From positions 1-64,000 of the IMG/VR virus record IMGVR_UViG_3300005527_000040: 64,000 nucleotides of DNA; one strand, written 5' to 3'. This document shows positions 1-17,925 of the stretch, piece by piece; the stretch's first letter is position 1; each line of letters starts with the position of its first letter. This DNA is from a virus. The notes beneath the pieces are model-generated. The model saw only the letters and a program-made list of their open reading frames with translations. It did not search any database and was not told where the DNA came from. Made by a program: the position numbers and the translations under genes.

Positions 1-1089
1 GAACTGAGTCGGGACTGGCGGCGTAACGCTCCCCGGAGCGATTGCGTTGATGGCCGCCGCCAGCTGGCCCAAGTAGACTACTAGAGGCTCCCCCAGCACC
101 GCGGAGTTCGCCGCCGAGGAATCGCCTAAAAAGGTGTTCCCCGATGTGATTACACTGGGGGCCTTGATTGTAGCCTGAGAGCCACCTTCAAGAATAGCGG
201 ACCCGCCCGACTTGTAGGACAGATCGCCGTCTACGTCTACGGTGTGGTTCCCCTTTACCCGTAGAGAGTAGTTCGTCCCGATCATCTCGGTCTTCTCCCC
301 CTCTACGGTGAGAAGCATCGAGTAAACCTCGTCCGCAACCTCTCCCGTATCTCGGTCGATGTTCTGCGGGGCTACGTAGACTTCCCAGGCAACCTTATCG
401 CCGCCACCAGGCCCCGTCACCGGCAGGTGACGGACGCGCACGGTGGCCTTCTCGTCTTGCGCAAACTCGTTTGCGTGGAACGTCCAGGTTGCTGGGGCGT
501 CTCCGCCCGGGTCGTCCTCTACTCTTCCTACGGTCCACGAGATGTCTCCGCCAAAGGCGTTCATCTCGTAGTTCTCGCAGAAGTCTTTGATGTAGTTCAG
601 GATCGGGATGTAGATCCTTTGCGCAATCGGGGTGGCGCCTAGTTGCAGGATCCCTCCCCGCCGCAATACGACAAAGTTCTCGTCGCGGGTTGTAAGCGCG
701 ATGTCTCCCGGTTGTAGATCAGGCCGGCGAGACTTGAACTCCACGTTCGACATGGACCCAGCGCCGTCTGGGGTAGACCGCTCCGGCTCCCCGTCCGTAG
801 AGGCACGAACGCCGGCCGCCCCGATGTACCCGAGGATGAACGGCGGCGTGTTGTCGCTAGGCCAAAACAGATAGCAGAGAGCACCTATCTCTGGAAGGTG
901 GTGCACTCCTTCCCCGTTTTCATAGTGGTGGTAGGGCACAAGACACTGGATGTCCTCTACCGTCTTGTTGCTGTGCCGGGTGTCGCAGGTAACCGTGTAC
1001 GACTTACGGTTGACATCGGTGATCACAGCTTCCTCGACGCGGACCTGCGAGTAAGACGCATGTGACGGAGCGTCGCGAGACCTAGCCAT
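1..1089 (-). CDS. Central baseplate spike protein (gp5/gpV-like), 3' end outside window
   Basis: The reading frame is open from ATG at 1089 to the window edge, giving 363 codons without a stop, so the C-terminus is missing. Residues about 12-85 look like an OB-fold of the gp5/gpV type: a beta-rich start, a histidine-rich loop, then a segment ending in FILGYIGA, as is typical of baseplate assembly protein V and VgrG-like hubs. Residues about 265-320 carry short alternating strands (YSLRVKGNHTVDVDGDL), as in the triple-stranded beta-helix of tail spikes. The role inferred is membrane puncture at the centre of the baseplate. The gene starts inside the stop codon of the RNA polymerase gene (TGATG overlap), so the two are probably co-transcribed and translationally coupled. 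The family assignment comes from fold-like pattern only and the exact subtype is open. Confidence 0.7.
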   Translation of the reverse strand, partial: MARSRDAPSHASYSQVRVEEAVITDVNRKSYTVTCDTRHSNKTVEDIQCLVPYHHYENGEGVHHLPEIGALCYLFWPSDNTPPFILGYIGAAGVRASTDGEPERSTPDGAGSMSNVEFKSRRPDLQPGDIALTTRDENFVVLRRGGILQLGATPIAQRIYIPILNYIKDFCENYEMNAFGGDISWTVGRVEDDPGGDAPATWTFHANEFAQDEKATVRVRHLPVTGPGGGDKVAWEVYVAPQNIDRDTGEVADEVYSMLLTVEGEKTEMIGTNYSLRVKGNHTVDVDGDLSYKSGGSAILEGGSQATIKAPSVITSGNTFLGDSSAANSAVLGEPLVVYLGQLAAAINAIAPGSVTPPVPTQF

Positions 1090-4000
1090 CAGCGCCCGCC
1101 CGGATTCGAAGCAATGAACTGGCCGTAGGCTAGTCGAGGAATCGGGTGTGACCCACGCACGTTAGCCGTCTCAAGGTGCTGAGCCGCCCGCCGAATGGTC
1201 TTGGACAGGTTTTCTCCCTGTAGCTTACCCATCCAGTCCGGCTGGATACGCTCTGGAACAGAGCCTACCGGAGTAATAACGGACGTATACTCGATGGGCT
1301 TCTTACCCTGAAGCACTGTCCGGTTCAGCTCGTCAAGAACCGTCCTTTGCGCGAAGTCTCCGCGCAGGTAGTGAGAGTGATCGCCGGGGTCAGTAACTCG
1401 GGCGACTCCGGTAGAGGATCTTACGGCCAGCTCTACGTGCCTACGGAGAACCCCCTCCGCCGCGTAGATGTCGCCGATCTTGTTGACCATGTGCTGCTGG
1501 GTTGCGTCAATGCCCTGCGTAGTCATCAGATCGTTTACGTTAGGGTCGCCATGCGTAAGCACTTCACCGCGGTGCGGCTTGTACCCGGCCACTACATGTT
1601 GGAGCGGCTTCTGACGGGTCTCTAGTGGGCGCTTAGACCCTTCGGTATGAATGGCCCACACACCTTCGCGAGACCGCTCTACCTTTGTCACCGGCGATGC
1701 GGCGTGGGCTACAGCCGCATCCATAAGACTCGGCTTTGCTGCGTTGAACATGCGCTGCACGTCACCGAACACAGCCACGGTCTGTCCCTTTGTAGACACG
1801 ATGCCCTGGCCGTGGGTCTGCTTAAGCATGATCTGCGCGGCACGCTCGCCAAGAGCATGAGCTGCAATGATTCCGGCGTTTTCTCCGTGAGAGTACTCTT
1901 TGCCGCTAGGATGTATACCCATGCAGTGAGAGCAAACCCCGGCGGGCATACGACACTTTAGCGGGCTGCGAACAACAAGCTGCCCCACCCTGGCTTTATC
2001 CGCCTCAGACAGAATCGTAGGCGTAACAACCGTACCGGCTCTGTGGACCCGGTCTCCTAGCTTTGTGTCCGAAGCCAGGCGTCGATCTACGATATCCTTG
2101 TCGGTCAACGGAAGCGCAATTCCAGAAGCAGTGCCGCAGTCTACCCCGGTGATCGGCTGATCAATGTTGGCCTGCACAAGCAGCTTGCTCATGTAGCCAG
2201 GCTCTCGGACAGAATCTGTCTTTTGAATTACGCCTCGGCGCGCTCCAGCAGCAGAAAGGAAGTAACCGCCAACGTCGACGCCTTCCGCAAACGACCGGGT
2301 AAGCGGAACACGGGAGGGGCGACCTAGGTGATCCTCGACCAGCATCGGGGCCATTACTAGGCCCTGGAACTGCTCGTGCTTAGCCTTGATCCCGCTGCTC
2401 GCCATGTCACTAATGTGGGTGGGGTTTCCCTTGTAGTGCTGGTTATAGACGTCATGAAGCTGCCGGGTTGCGGCCAGCCACTTCTCAGTAGTCGCTTCAC
2501 GGCTTGGGCCCGTTAAGCCTTCTACCTCTTTTTGTGTCTTATTGATGATCTGTCCACGAGCTTCGCGGAGCGGCTCTAGGTCTTTCAAAGATACGGTATG
2601 GCCAGACTCGTAGGCCATCTGGAAGCCAAGGCGGCTTAGGCCGTCTACGGTGGGGACGAAGATGTGAGGGTTTTGCTTTGCCACCTCGGACAAAACTGTG
2701 CTTTGGAACTTTCGGTCGAAAGGCCGATCCAGCTTTGTCAGCACCTCATGCCGGTACTTTTCTGGAACAACTTGGGCAATCCTAGCCCGCCCCAGCGTCG
2801 TCTTTCCTACGCCAGAGATCGTAATGGCCTCGTTAAGGTCGAGCTTGTTTTGCCGGAAAGCAGTCTCGGCTTCTTCCTTCGTCTTAAAGGTCTTGCCCTT
2901 ATCTCCACGCGGAATCGACATCCGGTAGAGGGCCAGCGCCGACTCGTTTGAGGGCGCGTAAAGTACATCTCCGCTGCTGTCGGAAAGCGTCCTCTGCGAA
3001 GGAAGGACCCGCTTAGCCTCCGCAACTGCGTGAGGAGACAGCGGAACCATCAGCGCAACGGTGTCGCCGTCGATGTCACCATTTAGCGGCGGTAGAACGA
3101 GGGGGTTTACCTTGATGGCCGCCTCGTTTGTGAGCTTGATGTTTTGACCGATGATTCCGTACTGATGCAGAACAGGATCTCGCTTTAGAAGAATTGGCCG
3201 GGTCTCTACCTCTTTTTCGAGGGCCTTGAGCGCCGTCTCGTGCTTGTGCGAGATCATGGTCTCTGCTTGACCGGGGGCGTACCCAAGCGCTTGAAGACGC
3301 CTAGACACCATTGGGCGCATCAGCTCTACGGCGATCTTCTTGGGAACCGCGATCTCCTCCACGCTAAGCGTGGGATCTACGACGATCGTAGCCCGAGACG
3401 TGTAGTCTTGTTTCTTGCCAATTAGCTTGTCTTGGAAGAAACCGTCCTTGGGCTGGTCGCCGGAGATCATATGGATGATTCCGGGCAGCTTCTTGTTGGG
3501 ATCCTCTTTGGTTCCCCGTACATCAAGATCTAGGCCCTTCTTGCCCTTAGCTGCGGTGCCAAACAGCTCCGTCATAGCCGTGTACAACCCCCGCCGGGTA
3601 TCCAGCGTAGCGTTGTACGGAACATGCTTGGACCCCTTCTCCAGCGACTCATTCGTCATCGCAAGACGACGGTAAAGAGAGTTGAGCGGGTTTACCTTGA
3701 CGGTACCGTCAGGGAGCATTCCTTGCTGCCGGTAAATCGGGGGAAGGACGGGGAGGGCCTTAAGTGTCCACGCATCAGCGGGGTTCTTGCCGACCTCCTT
3801 TAGGCCAACAAGAGCATGGAGTTTGAAGTTGACCTTGTCTAGCGCGGTCCCCTTTAACTTCGGGTCCTTAAGGGCTTCACGCGTCCTTACGATCTCTTTA
3901 TCCAGATCAAGCTTGGCAAGAGACTCGCGGAACGCCTTACCCCCGTATCCACCATCCGGCAGCTTCTTTTTGCCCTCAATGATGTCTGGGATGTCGGTTT

Positions 4001-7000
4001 CTTTGATCCCAAGCGTGTGTGCGATTGCTTTTGAAAACACCGGGTTGGGCATCGGCTCAACCAGTTCGATGTGAGACCACCGCTGACCTGACGGACCGCC
4101 TGTAATGTTGCGGTCGAAGAGACCGCCCTTCACCGGCTCGTCTCCCTCTGCCCAGCGCCCCTTTGACGCCTTTGTCAGCGCTCCGGCACTAAGCTTTCGG
4201 GTCTCTTCGTCCGTCCGCGGAATCATCCGGATAGACGTGCCGTTCTTGTGCAGGTCTACTCCAAGACCTTTCAGCATGTTCTCAAACTTGTTGTATACGA
4301 AGGGCACCTTGGGCGGAGGGAGCACCTCCCCGTTGATGAGCGCTCCCCAGACCTCGCGGGCTTGGTCCTTATCGGCCTTGAGCGTCTGCATCTCAGCAAG
4401 GTTGTGGTGCAGCCCAGCAGCAAGCGCTCCGTAGATACCAAGAGATCCAAGAGACTGAGCGCCGGTGTGGCCACCGCCGCGCGGGATCTTTGTATCGTTG
4501 TCGTAGTGGATCATCGGTGCGTCAAACTGAGTAAACGCCCGACCTCCGCTACGCACGTGGGTCTTCTTGTCGATCTGGTGCTCTAACTGGAACACGTAGT
4601 GCGGCCCGGTAGTAACGTCACCTAGCTTGCGACCGGTCTTTGGATCAAACAAAGACTCTGTCTCTTTAAGCCCGTGCCTGTTCAAATCGTCTTGAACCTT
4701 CTTGAGGTAGTCTACTCCCCCCTGAAAGTTCTTTACCGCGTAGGGTTGGCCGGTTTTTTCTGCGATCTTGCCAGCCGCAGTTTCTAGGATTTGGCCCGGG
4801 TTCATTCGGCCCGGCACTGAGACCGGGTTAATGAGCATTTCTACGGGCTTGCCCTGGCCGTCGTGGGGCATGTCCTTGTCGGGAAGAACCGACGTGACGA
4901 TCCCCTTCGCGCTGTGGCGCGTGGAGATCTTGGAGCCTACCTGTGCGGGCTCCCGGGTCTTTACATGGACGATGATGTTTCGCCCAGACCGCGCAACGTC
5001 AATAACCTCGCCTGGGTAGTCCGAATCCCAGGTCAACGACGTATTCATGAACTCTTGGCGAAGCTTTCCACCAAGCTTGAGATTCGTGTTCTCGTCAATG
5101 CTGCTAAGCTGAGATCGCCGCGACATTGCTAGGACAAGCGGATCGCCTGGGTGAACAATTGCACCCTTCTTTACGACGCCGTCGTCGCCAATCTTCGCCA
5201 TGCGCTGCGACCCGTATACGTCCTTGTTGTAGATAAACTTGTTCTTATCGATGATGGTTTCGTCTGAGACCATCATTACGGGTTTGTTGAGGTGCACCGA
5301 CCGAAGCTTCTCAGCCGCACTCTCAGAGATGACGATGCCATCCTCGTGGTTGGACCCGTTTGCTAGGTACGCCACGCGGAGGTTTGTCCCTAGCGCCAGT
5401 TGTCCGTTACGAGTGAAGTTGTTGTCGGCCAAGAGCTGACCCGACTTTACGCGGTCACCTTCTTTTACCAAGGGCTCGCTGTGAAGCATTCCCTTGTCGT
5501 GGTTGGTGGGGTAGTGATCGTACAGGTGTACAGAATGCTGTTTGCCAGCTGAGTCCTGTACGATGATCTCTTTAGGCCTAACCGCTTTTACAACACCGTC
5601 TATCGGAGCTTTGTGGGCGAGAAACCCACTGCCTACGAGTTTCTCAAAGGTCCTACCAGCGCCAATCTCTACCTGAACCTTGGGTGGCTCCCGGCCCTCG
5701 ATGCTGATTGCCTGCGCCATGTGTCGCGCAGACATCGTAGTCCGACCAGCCGCGTCGTTTTGCATGAACGGGACTAGGTTTGTCTCCGTAGCAAAAACCT
5801 GCGATGAGCTTGGCATCACGTAATGAGCAGACGACCATGGGAGATCATCCCTGAGTTCGCCCTTTACGTCAGACATGCGGATAGACTTCTCTCGCGGAGA
5901 AGGCTTACCGCCTTTCCAAACAACCTGGTCCGGAAGAACTACGTTGGATGTAGACGCAATCGTAGCGTCCACATCTTCCAGCTTTCCGGTCCTTAGGTTG
6001 TACAAGCTAACGTATGGCTTTCGATCCTTAATGCCGACGCCAAACGCCAGGTGTGTGTTTACCCCGGGGTTAGACTCTGGGGTAAACACGGGGTCCAGGA
6101 TGCCCAGGTGGCTTGGGTCAATCGCTGTGTTGGACTTTGTGATGCTGTGGGGGTTTGTAATTCCACCAGGACCCTGAATCGTAACCATACTCCTGTCAGA
6201 GAGCATGGAGATCGGGTTCGTCTGCTTGCCGTTGGAGGCAAGTGACGTCGTGAACACGCTGTAGAACGGTCGCCGGATAAGATCTGGCGGCACTACGTCA
6301 CGGATAACATCCGCATCGCCGGTAATAAGCTTCTTTTGGATCGACGGCTTATTTAGGGCTACAGAGACGCGGGACTTGATGTCGTCGCTTGCGCCAGCAA
6401 GCCGCTCGGCAAAGTGGTCCTTTGCTGACCACAGCTCTTTGTAACGAAGGCTATCGATGGGATCCGGCTCACGCCGACCACCGGAGACGTCTACCAGCTT
6501 CTTAGACGCGGCAAACAGTACGTCTGGCCCTACGCTGGCGGAGTCTAAGCCGAGGTTGGCCTTGACCACCGCGGGGTCCACCTTGGTCTGCTCAAAGAGG
6601 GCTTTGACGGCAAGCTTGGGGTCGTCTTTTTCCGAAAGAGCGCGCCCAGACCATGCCTCATGGAAGGAGCGGAGGTGCTTGTCGATGCCGCCCTTGTCCT
6701 TTACGGACTTTTGCTTGGTGACCTCAAACGCCGTGTCTCCCCAAGCAGAACGCATCTCACTGTCTGAGATGCCGTAGGCGTGCAGCACAGAGTAAAGGGG
6801 CACCTTCCGCCCCCCGACCTTGAGGTGCAGGTAGCCCTCTTGCCCCTGCTGGATGTCAAACGCAGCCCCCTTAGCTAACTGAAACTGCGCTTCGTACTCC
6901 CCGGGCTTCTCCGTACTCTTTACGTAAACACCCGGGCGGAGTCGCCACTGCTTTGTGATGAACTTTTCCTGCCCGCCAATGATGTAGCTGTAGTGCCTGG

Positions 7001-7292
7001 TCAGCTTGGGGATAGAAGCTAGCTGAATCTTCTTCTCTACCAGGCTTTTTCCGGTTTCTACGTCGACCACGGACACGCGTCCGGTGACTGGAGCTGCCCA
7101 GGACTTTCCCGTCATGCGGGCGTCGTGCTGCCCCTTGATGTCTCCGACGCCCTTGTCGTCGGAGACGGATACGTCCGACACACGAACCTCAAACCGGCCG
7201 GTTTTGTCCTTGATCGGAAACGTACTTCCAATCTGCTCGACCAGCTTGGTCTTCAGTTCCTCAAACTCGGCCTGCGGTTCGATAGTTAGCAC
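1089..7292 (-). CDS. Single-chain DNA-directed RNA polymerase, fused beta and beta' subunits
   Basis: This 2067-residue protein holds the hallmarks of both large bacterial RNA polymerase subunits in order. Beta part: the rif-region-like segment (about 375-410, LDPVFTPESNPG), PFMQNDAAGR (about 500), NHEDGIVISES (about 645), STRHSAKGIV and NPVSVPGRMN (about 790-830), and the beta C-terminal GGGHTGAQSLG (about 938). Beta' part: GGLFDRNITGG/HIELVEP (about 1056-1078), the catalytic NGDIDGD at 1404-1410 with its three magnesium-binding aspartates, a bridge-helix-like region, DCGT (about 1717) and CRMPAGVCSHC (about 1780) forming the four-cysteine zinc site, and the trigger-loop region GERAAQIMLKQTHGQG (about 1820). 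The N-terminal beta' zinc ribbon is absent. The start is GTG at 7292, because a stop lies in frame just upstream. No alpha, omega or sigma gene is visible. It probably transcribes phage genes. Confidence 0.97.
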   Translation of the reverse strand: MLTIEPQAEFEELKTKLVEQIGSTFPIKDKTGRFEVRVSDVSVSDDKGVGDIKGQHDARMTGKSWAAPVTGRVSVVDVETGKSLVEKKIQLASIPKLTRHYSYIIGGQEKFITKQWRLRPGVYVKSTEKPGEYEAQFQLAKGAAFDIQQGQEGYLHLKVGGRKVPLYSVLHAYGISDSEMRSAWGDTAFEVTKQKSVKDKGGIDKHLRSFHEAWSGRALSEKDDPKLAVKALFEQTKVDPAVVKANLGLDSASVGPDVLFAASKKLVDVSGGRREPDPIDSLRYKELWSAKDHFAERLAGASDDIKSRVSVALNKPSIQKKLITGDADVIRDVVPPDLIRRPFYSVFTTSLASNGKQTNPISMLSDRSMVTIQGPGGITNPHSITKSNTAIDPSHLGILDPVFTPESNPGVNTHLAFGVGIKDRKPYVSLYNLRTGKLEDVDATIASTSNVVLPDQVVWKGGKPSPREKSIRMSDVKGELRDDLPWSSAHYVMPSSSQVFATETNLVPFMQNDAAGRTTMSARHMAQAISIEGREPPKVQVEIGAGRTFEKLVGSGFLAHKAPIDGVVKAVRPKEIIVQDSAGKQHSVHLYDHYPTNHDKGMLHSEPLVKEGDRVKSGQLLADNNFTRNGQLALGTNLRVAYLANGSNHEDGIVISESAAEKLRSVHLNKPVMMVSDETIIDKNKFIYNKDVYGSQRMAKIGDDGVVKKGAIVHPGDPLVLAMSRRSQLSSIDENTNLKLGGKLRQEFMNTSLTWDSDYPGEVIDVARSGRNIIVHVKTREPAQVGSKISTRHSAKGIVTSVLPDKDMPHDGQGKPVEMLINPVSVPGRMNPGQILETAAGKIAEKTGQPYAVKNFQGGVDYLKKVQDDLNRHGLKETESLFDPKTGRKLGDVTTGPHYVFQLEHQIDKKTHVRSGGRAFTQFDAPMIHYDNDTKIPRGGGHTGAQSLGSLGIYGALAAGLHHNLAEMQTLKADKDQAREVWGALINGEVLPPPKVPFVYNKFENMLKGLGVDLHKNGTSIRMIPRTDEETRKLSAGALTKASKGRWAEGDEPVKGGLFDRNITGGPSGQRWSHIELVEPMPNPVFSKAIAHTLGIKETDIPDIIEGKKKLPDGGYGGKAFRESLAKLDLDKEIVRTREALKDPKLKGTALDKVNFKLHALVGLKEVGKNPADAWTLKALPVLPPIYRQQGMLPDGTVKVNPLNSLYRRLAMTNESLEKGSKHVPYNATLDTRRGLYTAMTELFGTAAKGKKGLDLDVRGTKEDPNKKLPGIIHMISGDQPKDGFFQDKLIGKKQDYTSRATIVVDPTLSVEEIAVPKKIAVELMRPMVSRRLQALGYAPGQAETMISHKHETALKALEKEVETRPILLKRDPVLHQYGIIGQNIKLTNEAAIKVNPLVLPPLNGDIDGDTVALMVPLSPHAVAEAKRVLPSQRTLSDSSGDVLYAPSNESALALYRMSIPRGDKGKTFKTKEEAETAFRQNKLDLNEAITISGVGKTTLGRARIAQVVPEKYRHEVLTKLDRPFDRKFQSTVLSEVAKQNPHIFVPTVDGLSRLGFQMAYESGHTVSLKDLEPLREARGQIINKTQKEVEGLTGPSREATTEKWLAATRQLHDVYNQHYKGNPTHISDMASSGIKAKHEQFQGLVMAPMLVEDHLGRPSRVPLTRSFAEGVDVGGYFLSAAGARRGVIQKTDSVREPGYMSKLLVQANIDQPITGVDCGTASGIALPLTDKDIVDRRLASDTKLGDRVHRAGTVVTPTILSEADKARVGQLVVRSPLKCRMPAGVCSHCMGIHPSGKEYSHGENAGIIAAHALGERAAQIMLKQTHGQGIVSTKGQTVAVFGDVQRMFNAAKPSLMDAAVAHAASPVTKVERSREGVWAIHTEGSKRPLETRQKPLQHVVAGYKPHRGEVLTHGDPNVNDLMTTQGIDATQQHMVNKIGDIYAAEGVLRRHVELAVRSSTGVARVTDPGDHSHYLRGDFAQRTVLDELNRTVLQGKKPIEYTSVITPVGSVPERIQPDWMGKLQGENLSKTIRRAAQHLETANVRGSHPIPRLAYGQFIASNPGGR

Positions 7293-7355
7293 CGGAGAAG
7301 TCTACCCCTTCGTGAAGAACCGGGTCAACGCGGCTATCAGAGTGTAGAGGTATTT
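7293..7355. promoter_or_regulatory. Divergent promoter region between RNA polymerase gene and MoxR cassette
   Basis: This 63-bp gap separates divergent genes. Leftward, TTGACC (7328-7323), an 18-nt spacer and TAGACT (7304-7299) resemble a sigma70-type promoter whose start point would fall almost on the GTG codon at 7292. Rightward, GGGTCAACG (7322-7330) followed by GGCTATCAG (7332-7340) matches an element also found before the genes at 17926 and 30277. AGAGG at 7346-7350 is a ribosome-binding site for the ATG at 7356. The two readings overlap and both are inferred from sequence alone. Confidence 0.5.
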
Positions 7356-7576: not shown

Positions 7577-7932
7577 AGGCGAAAGCAAGCAAGGTAGAGC
7601 TAGTTACCGCGCCCAGATTTCTAGCAGCCAACTACGTAGAAAACGCACATACGCCAATCTGTAGTTACTGTCAACAGAGCATTGATCTTCTGGACGACGC
7701 CCTCTGCGTTATTCCCGGGCAGTGGATGGCAGACAAGTCGGAGGGCGGCGCGATGTTCGTGCTTGAGCCGGACGTTCAGGTTCAGATCATCCAGCTAACA
7801 AATGGACAGATGGCCCTTCGGGTGGACTCCCACACCGCCAACCACGTGCACGCAGAGTGTCAGAAGCAGCTAGTCGCTGAGATGTTCGACTCCCCCTGGG
7901 GGATGGAAATCGAAGAGGAGGACTACCGATGA
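7573..7932 (+). CDS. CxxC/HxxC protein of the MoxR cassette, function unknown
   Basis: The start is taken as ATG 7573, which overlaps the previous stop and lies about 13 bases after GGAG. An in-frame ATG at 7561 sits directly on that site and is less likely. The 119-residue product carries CSYC near residue 30 and an HVHAEC motif near residue 90, which together could bind one zinc ion, and it has a very acidic C-terminus (EIEEEDYR). No catalytic motif is seen. The gene overlaps the MoxR-like ATPase gene by four bases, so the two are translationally coupled, and the protein may be an adaptor or substrate-binding partner. I do not recognise the family. Confidence 0.75.
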   Translation: MKAKASKVELVTAPRFLAANYVENAHTPICSYCQQSIDLLDDALCVIPGQWMADKSEGGAMFVLEPDVQVQIIQLTNGQMALRVDSHTANHVHAECQKQLVAEMFDSPWGMEIEEEDYR

Positions 7933-9119
7933 GCAGCGGTGTTGAAAGGCGCGGGCTGACCTACGGGCAGGCGCAAATCCGAGTACACGAAAATCTCCGC
8001 ATCCAGGCGAAGCTTTCTACGCAGAACGACAGTGAGGTTCTAAACACCCCCTGCCTCATGGCAGGGGTTGGCGGGGGAAAGACCTCCATGGCCCGCAGCG
8101 AAGCTCAGCGGTTTGAGCTTCCCCTTCGTGCCATCAATAACGGGGAGAACAGCGACCCAACGGACATGAGCGGTGTTCCGGTTCCTGCGCTCATCCGAGA
8201 TCTGATGGAGAGGGGAACCAACTCCGAAAAGTCAGGAGCCCAGGATGCCTACATGGAGTGGGTTCTTAACCGGTACGCGCTAGAGGCCTGCCAAGAAGGT
8301 GTATTCCTTTTCCTCGATGACATCGACAAGGCGCCCCCGCCGATTCAAGGGGCACTCCTTGGAATTATTGGCAACCGCAAGTTCCGGGATCGAAGTATCC
8401 ACCCCCACACGCTAATCATGGCTGCGGGCAACAGAACTTCAGACGACATCTACGCCCATCAGATCTCAGAGAGCCTAAAGACGCGGCTCACAATCATCGA
8501 GATGGAGCCAGATGTTCTGTCGTTCTGCGACTACGGTGTGCGTACGGGCAGAATCCACGAGATCGTTTGCGGGTTCTTACAGTACCGGCCGGAGTACCTA
8601 CACAAGTGGATTGAGGGTGTAAATCGCTTCCCCACCCCGCGTGGGTGGCGAGAAGTGTCCGTCCACTTCTCGGAAAGCCCCGACCCGTTTATGGACGGCT
8701 TGCACAACGGGTCGAAAGACAACTGGAAACAGATCGTATCTGAGAAGTGCGGAGAACCGGTCAGCAAAGACTTCTGGGCATGGTTCAAGATCATCCGCAA
8801 GGTTGACGTTCAGAAGGTCCTTCGTTCTGGGTCCATCGACGCAGTTCAAGGCGACGACGGGAAAACCACTGACAAGCGAATGGCAGAGTTTGCGGCGGTG
8901 TTCGCGATTGCCCAAGAGCTAAACAACAACGGAGTGAAGAAGGAATACTCCGGGTTAAACACCTTGTTCGACAACGCCAACAAGGCCGGCGTATCTAAGG
9001 AAATGCGGGTGGCGCTAGCTGTTCAGCTAAAGCGAGACGTACGTACTCAGATCGCCAAGATGTTTACGAAGGCGGCAGATCAAATGATGGAAGTTCTCAT
9101 TCCCACGGAGTCTGCTTGA
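7929..9119 (+). CDS. MoxR-type AAA+ ATPase
   Basis: The 396-residue protein has Walker A GVGGGKTS at residues 46-53, Walker B VFLFLDDID at about 125-133 followed by KAPPPIQGALL, and a sensor-1-like AAGN segment after IMA. This is the usual MoxR/RavA order. MoxR ATPases act as chaperone-like remodelling rings and are typically encoded beside a VWA-domain partner, exactly as here, where the next gene is a VWA protein starting within this stop codon. The start at ATG 7929 overlaps the previous gene by four bases. The target in the phage is unknown. Virion or host-complex remodelling, metal-cofactor insertion and counter-defence are all possible. Confidence 0.9.
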   Translation: MSSGVERRGLTYGQAQIRVHENLRIQAKLSTQNDSEVLNTPCLMAGVGGGKTSMARSEAQRFELPLRAINNGENSDPTDMSGVPVPALIRDLMERGTNSEKSGAQDAYMEWVLNRYALEACQEGVFLFLDDIDKAPPPIQGALLGIIGNRKFRDRSIHPHTLIMAAGNRTSDDIYAHQISESLKTRLTIIEMEPDVLSFCDYGVRTGRIHEIVCGFLQYRPEYLHKWIEGVNRFPTPRGWREVSVHFSESPDPFMDGLHNGSKDNWKQIVSEKCGEPVSKDFWAWFKIIRKVDVQKVLRSGSIDAVQGDDGKTTDKRMAEFAAVFAIAQELNNNGVKKEYSGLNTLFDNANKAGVSKEMRVALAVQLKRDVRTQIAKMFTKAADQMMEVLIPTESA

Positions 9120-10363
9120 TTAATGAAGCGTCGTTTACGAGTAAGGAGGCTCTCCGGCTTGTAAACGACGCTGTTTTTGATTTGATTCTACGGGCGGAGC
9201 TGATGGGGCTGTCCCTCATGGGAGAGGCCATCAAGATTCTACAAGACGACTCGATCAAAACAATGTGTACCGATGGGAGAACCATCCGAGTTTCGTCTGA
9301 GTGGCTGTCCAAGAACGGACTACGCGGCAACGTTTTTGACCTACTGCATGAGTGGCTTCACTGCTTCGGCAACCACGTCGCGCGGCGTGGGAGCAGAGAT
9401 CCCAGCCTGTGGAACATTGCCTGCGACATCTGGGTAGTAAAGACAGCCTCAGAAATACTAAGCCGCCCAAATGACGCTTGGGACCCTCCTAAAGATGGGG
9501 TTCAGCCTCCCAAGTGGGCCGAGGGGCTCTCCGTAGAGGAGATCTACGACAAGCTAAAGTCTGAGCAGGACCAGCGAAAGTCATCGGGCCTTACGTCACC
9601 TGGACCGCTTAGGTCAGCTTCTCAAAGTTCGTCTAGTGATCCTAGTAGCGAAATCCAGTCCGGTAAGGACTTCGACTACAAGAGCGCGGAAGAAGCCACG
9701 GAGCAAGAAGAGCAAGACTTCGTAGATCAGTTTACAAACGAGCTTGCCCAAGCTCAGCTGATTATGGAGATGTCCAGTGGCCAAAGCGTAGAGGATCGCT
9801 ACGGGTCAAAGGTGTCATCTCGTATTACAGAGGTGTTAAGGGGCACCGTTCCTTGGTCACGGCTGCTTCGTGGGGACTTGATCGATAAGCTGGAGAAGCA
9901 GCACGCTACCTGGAGCCCTCCGCGCCGGAAATATTACCCGCTGATTCCGCTGCCTTCGTACCAAAGCACAAAGACTCGCAAGCTGGTCTTGTCGATCGAC
10001 GTGTCGGCGTCCGTTGGCGAGAAGATGATGAAGGCGTTTATTTCAAACACCATGCCGGCGGCGCTGCGGGCTGATGAAACCATCGTCATTACTTTCGATC
10101 AGGTAATCCGCGAGGTGGTTCACACGCGAAGACCCAAAGACATCTTGAATCAAGTCAAGTTCTTACAGGGGGCGCATAGCTACACGGATGTCCGCCCCGT
10201 GTTTGACATGATCAGAGAAATCAACCCGTCTGCCGTAGCGATTCTTACTGACGCGTATCTATCCTACCCAGACGATCCGTACCGAGATGCCATCTTTGTG
10301 GTTCCACGGGGGGCAGGAACTCCCCCATGGGGAAAGGTGTACGTAATGGAGGAGTCTTGGTGA
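9116..10363 (+). CDS. HExxH-like/VWA-domain protein (DUF2201-like), MoxR partner
   Basis: The start is TTG at 9116, overlapping the MoxR stop (TTGA), with GGAG about six bases upstream. The N-terminal half contains HEWLH at residues 78-82, the zinc-site pattern of predicted metallopeptidase-like domains fused to VWA (DUF2201 type). Residues about 150-200 are a Ser/Glu-rich linker. The C-terminal half is a VWA domain: LSIDVSASVG at about 292-301 supplies the DxSxS metal-adhesion motif, and later strands hold TYTD-like threonine and aspartate positions. VWA proteins of this class bind the MoxR ring and deliver substrates. At 415 residues the protein is complete. Whether the HExxH site cleaves peptides is untested. 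Confidence 0.85.
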   Translation: MINEASFTSKEALRLVNDAVFDLILRAELMGLSLMGEAIKILQDDSIKTMCTDGRTIRVSSEWLSKNGLRGNVFDLLHEWLHCFGNHVARRGSRDPSLWNIACDIWVVKTASEILSRPNDAWDPPKDGVQPPKWAEGLSVEEIYDKLKSEQDQRKSSGLTSPGPLRSASQSSSSDPSSEIQSGKDFDYKSAEEATEQEEQDFVDQFTNELAQAQLIMEMSSGQSVEDRYGSKVSSRITEVLRGTVPWSRLLRGDLIDKLEKQHATWSPPRRKYYPLIPLPSYQSTKTRKLVLSIDVSASVGEKMMKAFISNTMPAALRADETIVITFDQVIREVVHTRRPKDILNQVKFLQGAHSYTDVRPVFDMIREINPSAVAILTDAYLSYPDDPYRDAIFVVPRGAGTPPWGKVYVMEESW

Positions 10364-16347: not shown

Positions 16348-17859
16348 TCAGATGCGGAAGGTCTGGGACGAGTTATCCGACGCGAGGCGCGATAGTACCA
16401 CCTTTTGCGGATCGGGCATGGACTTGAAGATTCCCACGGGGTCGGTCTGGAACGACTGGCTGAACCCCGACCCAAACGTAGTGTCTAGGTCTGCTCGACG
16501 GGAGGCCAGAGCTTTCAGCATCGCGCCGCTGACGTAGTCGCCACCGCTTCGCCAGGAGTACACGTCCTCTTCCGCGGGCTGAGCCTCGCTGAGCTTAGGC
16601 TGGCCGTAAACTGCCTCATAAGGGTCGCGGAACCCGACCCCGGGACGACCGTATACAAGGTCTGCACCCGATTCGTGATCTGCTTCACGAAGCATGTCTG
16701 CCATGATGTTAGGGCTGATCGAGCTGACTTTTTCAAGGAGCAACTCGTAAACCTCTTCGTGTCCGCTACCCGCGTAACTAGAGACCCGAGCGTGCAACTC
16801 CGGGTGAATAAACGGGCCGTACTCGACACCCCCGTAAGCAAGAGCAGACCCGGAGATCTTAACCCCAAGCTCGTCCGCGCGGCCCAAAACCGACTGCGAG
16901 AACACCCGCCGGTCTAGTGGGGAGAACGAGTAAAGGTGCTCGTCTAAGTACGCCGACGCGGTTTTAAGCTGGTTGACGGTGTCGATTGGGTAGAGACCCT
17001 TGTGGGGCATCGCAAAGTGCTGGTGCGATGCCTCCTTGTGGCGAACCGGGGAAGACTCGTGGGTAAGGTCTACCGAGACACCCAGCGAGGATGTCTTAGA
17101 GGTCACGCCGGCAGAGCGGAGGGGACTTGCCTTTGCGTGCCCCCGGCGCTGCTGGTGGCTCATGGCCTCGGTGTTGTTTAGGTCCGCGACCTTCTTCGCT
17201 TGCTCCGCAAACTCTCCATGCTGTACTTGCCGGTCAAGCTTGCGGTGCGTCGGCCCATGCTGGGAGAACTGGTCTAGCGGGCCAAAAATGTAACCCGACT
17301 CTGGGCCCTCGGCACGCTGCATGGCGGCGTCCTGGTCCATTGTAAGCTGGATCTCCCGCCCCGACGCTACCTTTGCGCCCGCCATCTGATTGGCGCGGAA
17401 GACTTCCATACGCTCACGGCCCTTGGCGTTTTCTTCGCGGGCTGAGTTCGCAGCGTCCCCAATACCCTGACCAATGGTAAGCGCGTTCATCGCCATGTTA
17501 AGGAGCGCTTCCTTCTTCAAGAAGCTTGGCGGGTCCTGGTCGTACCAGCCGCACCCCTCTACTAAGTTTGAGGCTACCTTTGCCCGTACATGATCCGGAA
17601 GAAGGTGTCCGCACTCTGCAAAGTAGAGGATGGAAGTAGCGAGGTGCCCCTCGTCATGCATAGCAAACTTGCGGAGTGTGTCCCCGTGATTGCTTGCTAC
17701 TAGTGCAAACAACCGGTCCGGTAGACGCTCCAGCTCCTCGTGGTCTAGCAGACGAGAGGAGGCAAGCTTCTGGGGCAGCGAGCGCCCAGCCATCTTGTTT
17801 CGGAGAACGACTCCCTTTGGGTCGTCGTAAATGTCTAGGATCACGCCTGCGAGGTTCAT
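16348..17859 (-). CDS. Conserved phage virion-type protein, 503 residues, function unknown
   Basis: First gene of the leftward portal operon. The N-terminal 110 residues are strongly patterned (DPKG, ERLPDRLFALV, RKFAMHDEGHLATS, CGHLLP), suggesting a conserved helical domain. The middle (about 190-290) is polar and low-complexity with several His/Gln runs, and the C-terminal third is helical again (YLDEHLYSFSPLDRRVF). No catalytic set is evident, and HDEGH is not a HExxH motif. The ATG at 17859 lacks a clear ribosome-binding site. A TTGACC-18-TATCTT promoter-like sequence would place transcription initiation right at the ATG, so the message may be leaderless. A structural or internal head protein is the best guess. 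Confidence 0.75.
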   Translation of the reverse strand: MNLAGVILDIYDDPKGVVLRNKMAGRSLPQKLASSRLLDHEELERLPDRLFALVASNHGDTLRKFAMHDEGHLATSILYFAECGHLLPDHVRAKVASNLVEGCGWYDQDPPSFLKKEALLNMAMNALTIGQGIGDAANSAREENAKGRERMEVFRANQMAGAKVASGREIQLTMDQDAAMQRAEGPESGYIFGPLDQFSQHGPTHRKLDRQVQHGEFAEQAKKVADLNNTEAMSHQQRRGHAKASPLRSAGVTSKTSSLGVSVDLTHESSPVRHKEASHQHFAMPHKGLYPIDTVNQLKTASAYLDEHLYSFSPLDRRVFSQSVLGRADELGVKISGSALAYGGVEYGPFIHPELHARVSSYAGSGHEEVYELLLEKVSSISPNIMADMLREADHESGADLVYGRPGVGFRDPYEAVYGQPKLSEAQPAEEDVYSWRSGGDYVSGAMLKALASRRADLDTTFGSGFSQSFQTDPVGIFKSMPDPQKVVLSRLASDNSSQTFRI

Positions 17860-17925
17860 GCCTACAAAGATACTTCGTTAAACGTATGGGGGTCAACGGC
17901 CTATCAGTATTTGCAAGGAGGTTTC
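17860..17925. promoter_or_regulatory. Divergent promoter region between virion operon and replication block
   Basis: Leftward: TTGACC (17896-17891), 18 bases, then TATCTT (17872-17867), seven bases before ATG 17859. Rightward: GGGTCAACG (17890-17898) followed at once by GCCTATCAG (17899-17907), the same element as at 7322-7340 and, in variant form, 30250-30264. AAGGAGG at 17915-17921 is a strong ribosome-binding site for ATG 17926. Because both readings share bases, the direction in which the conserved element acts is unresolved. Confidence 0.5.

Follow-up and report, generated by a model that had tools for sequence, protein, structure and literature searches.

A single-chain beta-beta' RNA polymerase without the beta' N-terminal zinc ribbon, and a candidate sigma-70-family partner, in a phage genome

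Natural head-to-tail fusions of the beta and beta' subunits of RNA polymerase (RNAP) are known from cells, where the rpoBC genes of Helicobacter and Wolbachia have the same order as the phage gene described here; those fusions belong to cellular RNAPs that have alpha and omega and keep the beta' zinc ribbon. Amongst phages, the RNAPs of the jumbo phages phiKZ and AR9 are likewise of the multisubunit type without alpha and omega, and occur in virion and non-virion forms, but their beta and beta' are divided over 4-5 chains, with two RNAPs per genome and no sigma homologue (PMC7598289). The crAss-like gp66, YonO and P23-45 gp64/gp96 enzymes do carry both barrel domains in one polypeptide, and gp96 is a virion RNAP, but all are highly diverged (PMC10770324); that of the crAss-like phages is described in PMC7481178 as undetectable with beta/beta' HMMs. 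Nearer to the present case are the mReC phages of Weinheimer & Aylward 2020 (PMC7481178), tailed phages with deep-branching but alignable beta and beta' homologues; the main text of that paper does not describe a beta-beta' fusion in them.

The locus presented here lies in a window of 64,000 nucleotides (positions 1 to 64,000 of IMG/VR record IMGVR_UViG_3300005527_000040), from a contig of 160,725 bp, and its features are collected in Table 1. The original prediction, made from the letters of the DNA, was of one continuous beta-then-beta' frame with an NGDIDGD catalytic loop, bridge helix, trigger loop and zinc site; its coordinates and length were right, the strand, which it left unstated, is the minus strand, and each of these elements can be placed on E. 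coli residues through a map built from separate beta and beta' alignments. Pfam models from both the RpoB side (Rpb2_6, E 2.5e-57 at residues 562-918) and the RpoC side (Rpb1_2, 3e-20; Rpb1_5, 1e-14; Rpb1_3, 2e-7) match the 2067-aa chain, and a phmmer search of the PDB aligns bacterial beta' (4e-85) and beta (7e-71) to the same chain, beta then beta', in canonical order. The E. coli beta lysines K1065/K1073 correspond to K788/K796, and both are present in 65/65 sequences of the phage clade; the beta' aspartates D460/D462/D464 correspond to D1406/D1408/D1410, with the DxDGD triad in all 59 members that have coverage. Trigger-loop H936 is H1827 here (present in 49/49), the bridge-helix glycine (E. 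coli G794) is kept in 49/49, and the second beta' zinc site (C814/C888/C895/C898) is found as C1719/C1780/C1787/C1790, with four cysteines in 48 of 49. In the rifampicin-resistance region, the query deviates at several positions (S353, K356, D366, T371). Structure prediction, which had been proposed as a check, was run with AlphaFold on residues 340-1487 with a 37-sequence alignment (mean pLDDT 77.6), and Foldseek matches the resulting fold to bacterial beta chains (E 3e-45). We regard it as practically certain that this gene encodes a complete, bacterial-type beta-beta' RNAP fused in one chain.

Table 1. Positions of the features discussed (window coordinates unless stated otherwise)
Feature	Position	Strand	Basis
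Gene after RNAP, overlapping the RNAP stop; weak gp5/baseplate-like matches; conserved neighbour	1..1089	-	similarity, synteny
Single-chain beta-beta' RNAP, 2067 aa; GTG start at 7292, stop at 1089-1091	1089..7292	-	Pfam, PDB phmmer, residue map, relatives
beta' half, residues 1018-2067; NGDIDGD at 1404-1410 (window 3063-3083); second zinc site retained	1092..4241	-	residue map
Site of absent beta' N-terminal zinc ribbon, residues 1056-1080, GGLFDRNITGGPSGQRWSHIELVEP	4053..4127	-	residue alignment
beta-beta' junction, ~residues 1011-1055	4128..4262	-	alignment
beta half, residues 1 to ~1017, active-site lysines K788 and K796	4242..7292	-	boundary from alignment of bacterial beta C-termini
Promoter-like element at RNAP start, TTGACC-N18-TAGACT-N6-GTG	7290..7328	-	conserved, one per genome in 9/9
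Divergent copy of second motif, GGCTATCAG, serving oppositely oriented genes; same place in most close relatives	7332..7340	+	motif scan
Portal protein homologue, 632 aa	11808..13706	-	blastp 2e-64 to Arash portal
Second RNAP-class element at portal operon start, TTGACC-N18-TATCTT-N7-ATG	17857..17896	-	conserved
Copy of second motif, CCTATCAG-N4-TG, at start of rightward operon with helicase and primase genes	17900..17914	+	motif scan
Sigma-70-family gene, 1.9 kb outside the window	contig 65,893-66,711	-	match to Arash sigma gp10 at 9e-18

A four-cysteine zinc ribbon at the beta' N-terminus is a defining feature of the bacterial enzyme, though not of the beta/beta' superfamily. Its deletion, also part of the original prediction, is borne out: the cysteines of this first site (C70/C72/C85/C88 in E. 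coli) fall in a gap in all 65 phage sequences, that of the query among them, and so, as judged from the alignment, the loss is a trait of the whole phage clade and not of this protein alone. The junction itself is almost linkerless, with the beta C-terminus (GVDLHKN; GINIELE in E. coli) passing directly into beta' at about E. coli residue 17.

Searches of IMG/VR returned 16 close relatives, and 76 loci with an alignment as query; a single ORF of 2040-2119 aa occurs in 19 relatives besides the query, down to ~28% identity. This bears directly on the objection that a missed stop or frameshift, as an artefact of assembly or annotation, has joined two genes. Nothing was found in its favour. The 19 other contigs come from many metagenomes and share both the open frame and its conserved junction, and since they keep the same ORF intact, neither chance nor a missed stop can account for it; we have ruled the artefact out as vanishingly improbable, and the claim of a natural fusion stands. 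The comparison that the original prediction drew, with the split multisubunit RNAPs of the phiKZ and AR9 types, needs amending: the fusion in canonical order is there, but single-chain, two-barrel phage RNAPs (gp66, YonO, P23-45) were already known. A text search of the open literature (subscription papers lay outside its scope) gave no report of a phage beta-beta' fused RNAP near the bacterial type.

Three architectures can be distinguished within the clade. In ‘A’ the whole enzyme is one chain; in ‘B’ beta and beta' to ~query residue 1488 form one ORF, with the rest of beta' in a second ORF of ~600 aa; and in ‘C’ there are three ORFs: one for beta and roughly 90 N-terminal residues of beta' (ending at ~1112), a second for beta' 1112-1488, and a third for the C-terminal part of beta'. 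Among isolated phages, Salmonella Arash and Vibrio D69, D148 and D181 have architecture B, with beta' cut once. Wherever the beta-beta' junction is visible, three-piece forms included, it is fused.

Several loci show further peculiarities. Beta is broken at profile position ~508 in Vibrio phage D181 (L033:3926-9440) and in contig L104 (8899-14417); the gap in D181 holds an annotated homing endonuclease, and could be either an intron or a gene split. In six two-piece loci (L081, L082, L103, L084, L085 and L092) the beta-beta'N chain is enlarged by 100-300 inserted residues, giving ORFs of 1596-1936 aa; inteins or lineage-specific domains are candidates for these insertions. Cobetia phage Carin-5 and Yersinia phage GN1 (L020, L030) carry separate genes in the order beta' then beta (~1100 + 930 aa), a distinct kind of RNAP from another phage group. 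The automatic architecture label of L029 proved wrong, its separate beta' being from another phage group, and it was left out of the counts. ‘Phage’ records with bacterial-looking matches (Acinetobacter, Enterococcus, Listeria, Staphylococcus) were taken for bacterial sequence and kept solely as outgroups; OR846602, OR844998, OR849902, CAKLQH020000005 and others, labelled as phage, have bacterial-looking rpoB-rpoC operons and are probably host sequence. A scan of genome contigs for relatives gave two fragments in one bin only, with no provirus or host link, and nucleotide comparison with known phages gave no match.

The order of these events matters because Iyer et al. 2021 (PMC7824862) hold the split RNAPs of the phiKZ/AR9 group to be primordial, whereas here the split forms bear the mark of a former fusion. 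A phylogeny, proposed with the original prediction and run here against bacteria (FastTree, SH-like supports, bacterial root; topology tests with 1000 replicates), groups B and C together (0.999), and has the bacterial branch fall among the single-chain lineages. A clade of two-piece forms that excludes the three-piece forms is rejected (AU 1e-18), the latter being nested within the former; monophyly of the single-chain forms is weakly rejected by the AU test (0.03), with an SH value of 0.46. The root of the phage clade rests on the long bacterial branch and its exact position is not firm. This last point, together with the argument of PMC7824862, leaves some room for the two- or three-piece forms being ancestral in the clade and the single chain a late re-fusion. 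We consider this quite improbable. In all members, three-piece ones included, beta is still attached to the start of beta', which an ancestor that was never fused would leave unexplained; the three-piece forms fall within the two-piece group; and PMC7824862 concerns other phages. Because the junction is fused in all architectures, an ancestral fusion followed by two fissions fits best, and it is very likely, on these comparisons, that the beta-beta' fusion is ancestral to the clade; beta' would then have undergone fission near residue 1488, and again near 1112 in a nested group.

How does this enzyme sit amongst the described systems? It differs from the phiKZ/AR9 group in being one chain, with one RNAP per contig in each of the nine large contigs including its own, and its matches to phiKZ/AR9-type PHROGs are weaker only; it differs from the diverged crAss-like, YonO and P23-45 enzymes in matching bacterial beta and beta' at E <1e-70 along the chain. 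Like the mReC phages, it combines beta/beta' Pfam matches with portal and terminase genes in one genome, and, judged by such general features, the virus is of the mReC kind. The screen of PMC7481178 demanded NADxDGD, and the query would drop out of it because NGDIDGD fails this pattern, which is a screening filter and not a biological definition. Closest are Arash (gp206/gp216) and Vibrio D69/D148/D181, which share homology along the whole length, the fused junction, the lack of a zinc ribbon, a portal gene nearby and, for Arash, a sigma; they differ in having beta' cut near query residue 1490. In our alignment, Arash gp206 is beta plus the catalytic beta'N and gp216 is beta'C. In the parts of the Arash article consulted (PMC10585845), the annotation names the two pieces beta and beta', and the catalytic beta' domain of gp206 is unmentioned.

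The original prediction also noted that no alpha, omega or sigma was seen. For alpha and omega this holds in the query's own contig: no alpha (PF01193) is recognisable there, and no omega (PF01192) in the nine large contigs, its own included, all of which may be incomplete. For sigma it holds inside the window only, as a search of the rest of the genome located a sigma-70-family gene just beyond its end. The Pfam sigma region-2 model finds nothing in this genome, and a single-sequence Pfam scan of the gene stays below the cut-off; it came to light only through comparison with Arash gp10, and its relatives in viral contigs similarly escaped single-sequence scans but were recovered by an alignment scan. 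Against the PDB, the profile of this family matches RpoD/SigB/RpoS-type sigma factors (best 4.6e-10); with Arash left out, E is 7e-7, 53 of 54 matches are sigma, and profile positions 88-259 align with RpoD 367-543, a match that spans regions 2 to 4. The predicted fold of one relative matches sigma factors with moderate confidence. Exactly one such gene is present in each of the nine large contigs, two of which played no part in building the profile.

It is quite likely, as far as comparison of sequences can tell, that this sigma partners the phage RNAP. It might instead serve the host core, in which case the phage RNAP, like the phiKZ and AR9 enzymes, would either dispense with sigma or rely on a different factor. 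Phages that lack an RNAP of their own commonly encode sigmas that redirect the host's (PMC7598289), and the phage enzyme has not kept the clamp-helix residues known to contact sigma region 2 (R275, E295). We hold such a role in the host enzyme to be unlikely, given a sigma in all nine large RNAP-bearing contigs, the presence of sigma together with RNAP in Arash virions, a distance of only ~2.6 kb between the two genes in L054, and clamp helices that keep the LNxLYR motif in many members of the clade.

The RNAP gene is placed between portal and terminase genes in the query and its relatives. The portal is the next upstream gene on the RNAP strand in the query and close relatives and is directly adjacent in distant ones; in Arash, one small gene lies between. 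The head cluster would appear to cross the ends of the query's own contig, as expected for a permuted map. On the opposite strand, window 7929-10363 (+) encodes an AAA ATPase and then a DUF2201/VWA metallopeptidase-like protein; close relatives keep this pair. A GC content of 57-59%, the lack of tRNA genes in the window and leaderless TAnnnT promoters hint at an actinobacterial-type host.

Two classes of promoter-like element can be discerned. The first, TTGACC-N18-TARACT, stands 5-6 nt 5' of the start codon of the RNAP gene and is found exactly once in each of nine contigs, with the portal-operon element ~10-11 kb away in 9/9 genomes; the RNAP and portal-operon mRNAs are predicted to be leaderless, and the RNAP promoter (TTGACC / TAnnnT) resembles those read by host sigma-A. 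The second, CCTATMAG-N4-TGR, is found in front of the sigma gene, of many small genes and of the rightward replication operon (17,900). There are 26 exact copies of its 8-base core, mostly intergenic; taken by itself, the core is no rarer in the window than expected, and the evidence therefore lies in the intergenic placement and in the extended motif, which gives 35 high-scoring sites against 0-3 in Markov-shuffled sequence. The strict pattern recurs in 4/8 relatives with zero control hits. Sites in the window include 34167 (-), 34215 (+), 17900 (+) and 7332 (+), with many more in contig 84,000-131,000; they lie very close to the start codon and often extend into the Shine-Dalgarno region. 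A host sigma-70 promoter is disfavoured for this motif because of the G at the last -10 position. Which enzyme uses which promoter class is something that we infer.

Is the enzyme carried in the particle? In the published virion proteome of Arash (PMC10585845), gp206 has 3516 spectra, the most of all virion proteins and above the major capsid protein, with 1210 for gp216 and 467 for sigma gp10; 116 proteins were detected in the particles, and the authors say that some may be carry-over. Arash is a two-piece relative, ~31% identical. By analogy with Arash, the RNAP of this branch is probably a virion RNAP. Alternatively, the single chain could be a non-virion enzyme, made by host RNAP after infection and, with the phage sigma, transcribing middle or late genes: since its promoter resembles that of host sigma-A, the host enzyme could make it early, and this bipartite, leaderless element is found in 9/9 contigs, while the proteome comes from outside the single-chain branch. 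We give this a lesser but appreciable chance, as the portal operon is driven by the same promoter class, the gene sits amongst those for head proteins, there is no second RNAP in any of these contigs, and its relatives in Arash are virion proteins that give many spectra.

Synthesising these findings, we favour, with some reserve, a model in which the query is a catalytically complete, alpha/omega-independent virion RNAP with a phage sigma, encoded by a tailed mReC-type phage. Joining the two subunits covalently, beta C-terminus to beta' N-terminus, would replace the role of alpha in assembly; RNAP and phage sigma would be produced alongside the head proteins, packaged and delivered with the DNA, and would then start early transcription at CCTATMAG-N4-TGR promoters. 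More tentatively, and at somewhat less than even probability, we suggest that the ancestor of a major phage lineage had a single-chain RNAP lacking the zinc ribbon, which was packaged in the virion with a dedicated sigma-70 relative and read its own CCTATMAG-N4-TGR promoter ‘code’, and that split RNAPs arose in this lineage by fission, the reverse of the scenario of primordial pieces.

The query is a natural one-gene, alpha-free, bacterial-type RNAP, and because it can be aligned residue by residue with the cellular enzymes, it can be used to test the need for alpha, omega and the beta' zinc ribbon. Likewise, with the same enzyme present in one, two or three chains across the clade, the question of an ancient versus a secondary split of phage RNAPs becomes directly testable. 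If our model is true, the query would also be a virion polymerase acting together with a sigma-70 relative, unlike the phiKZ and AR9 enzymes, which use other factors.
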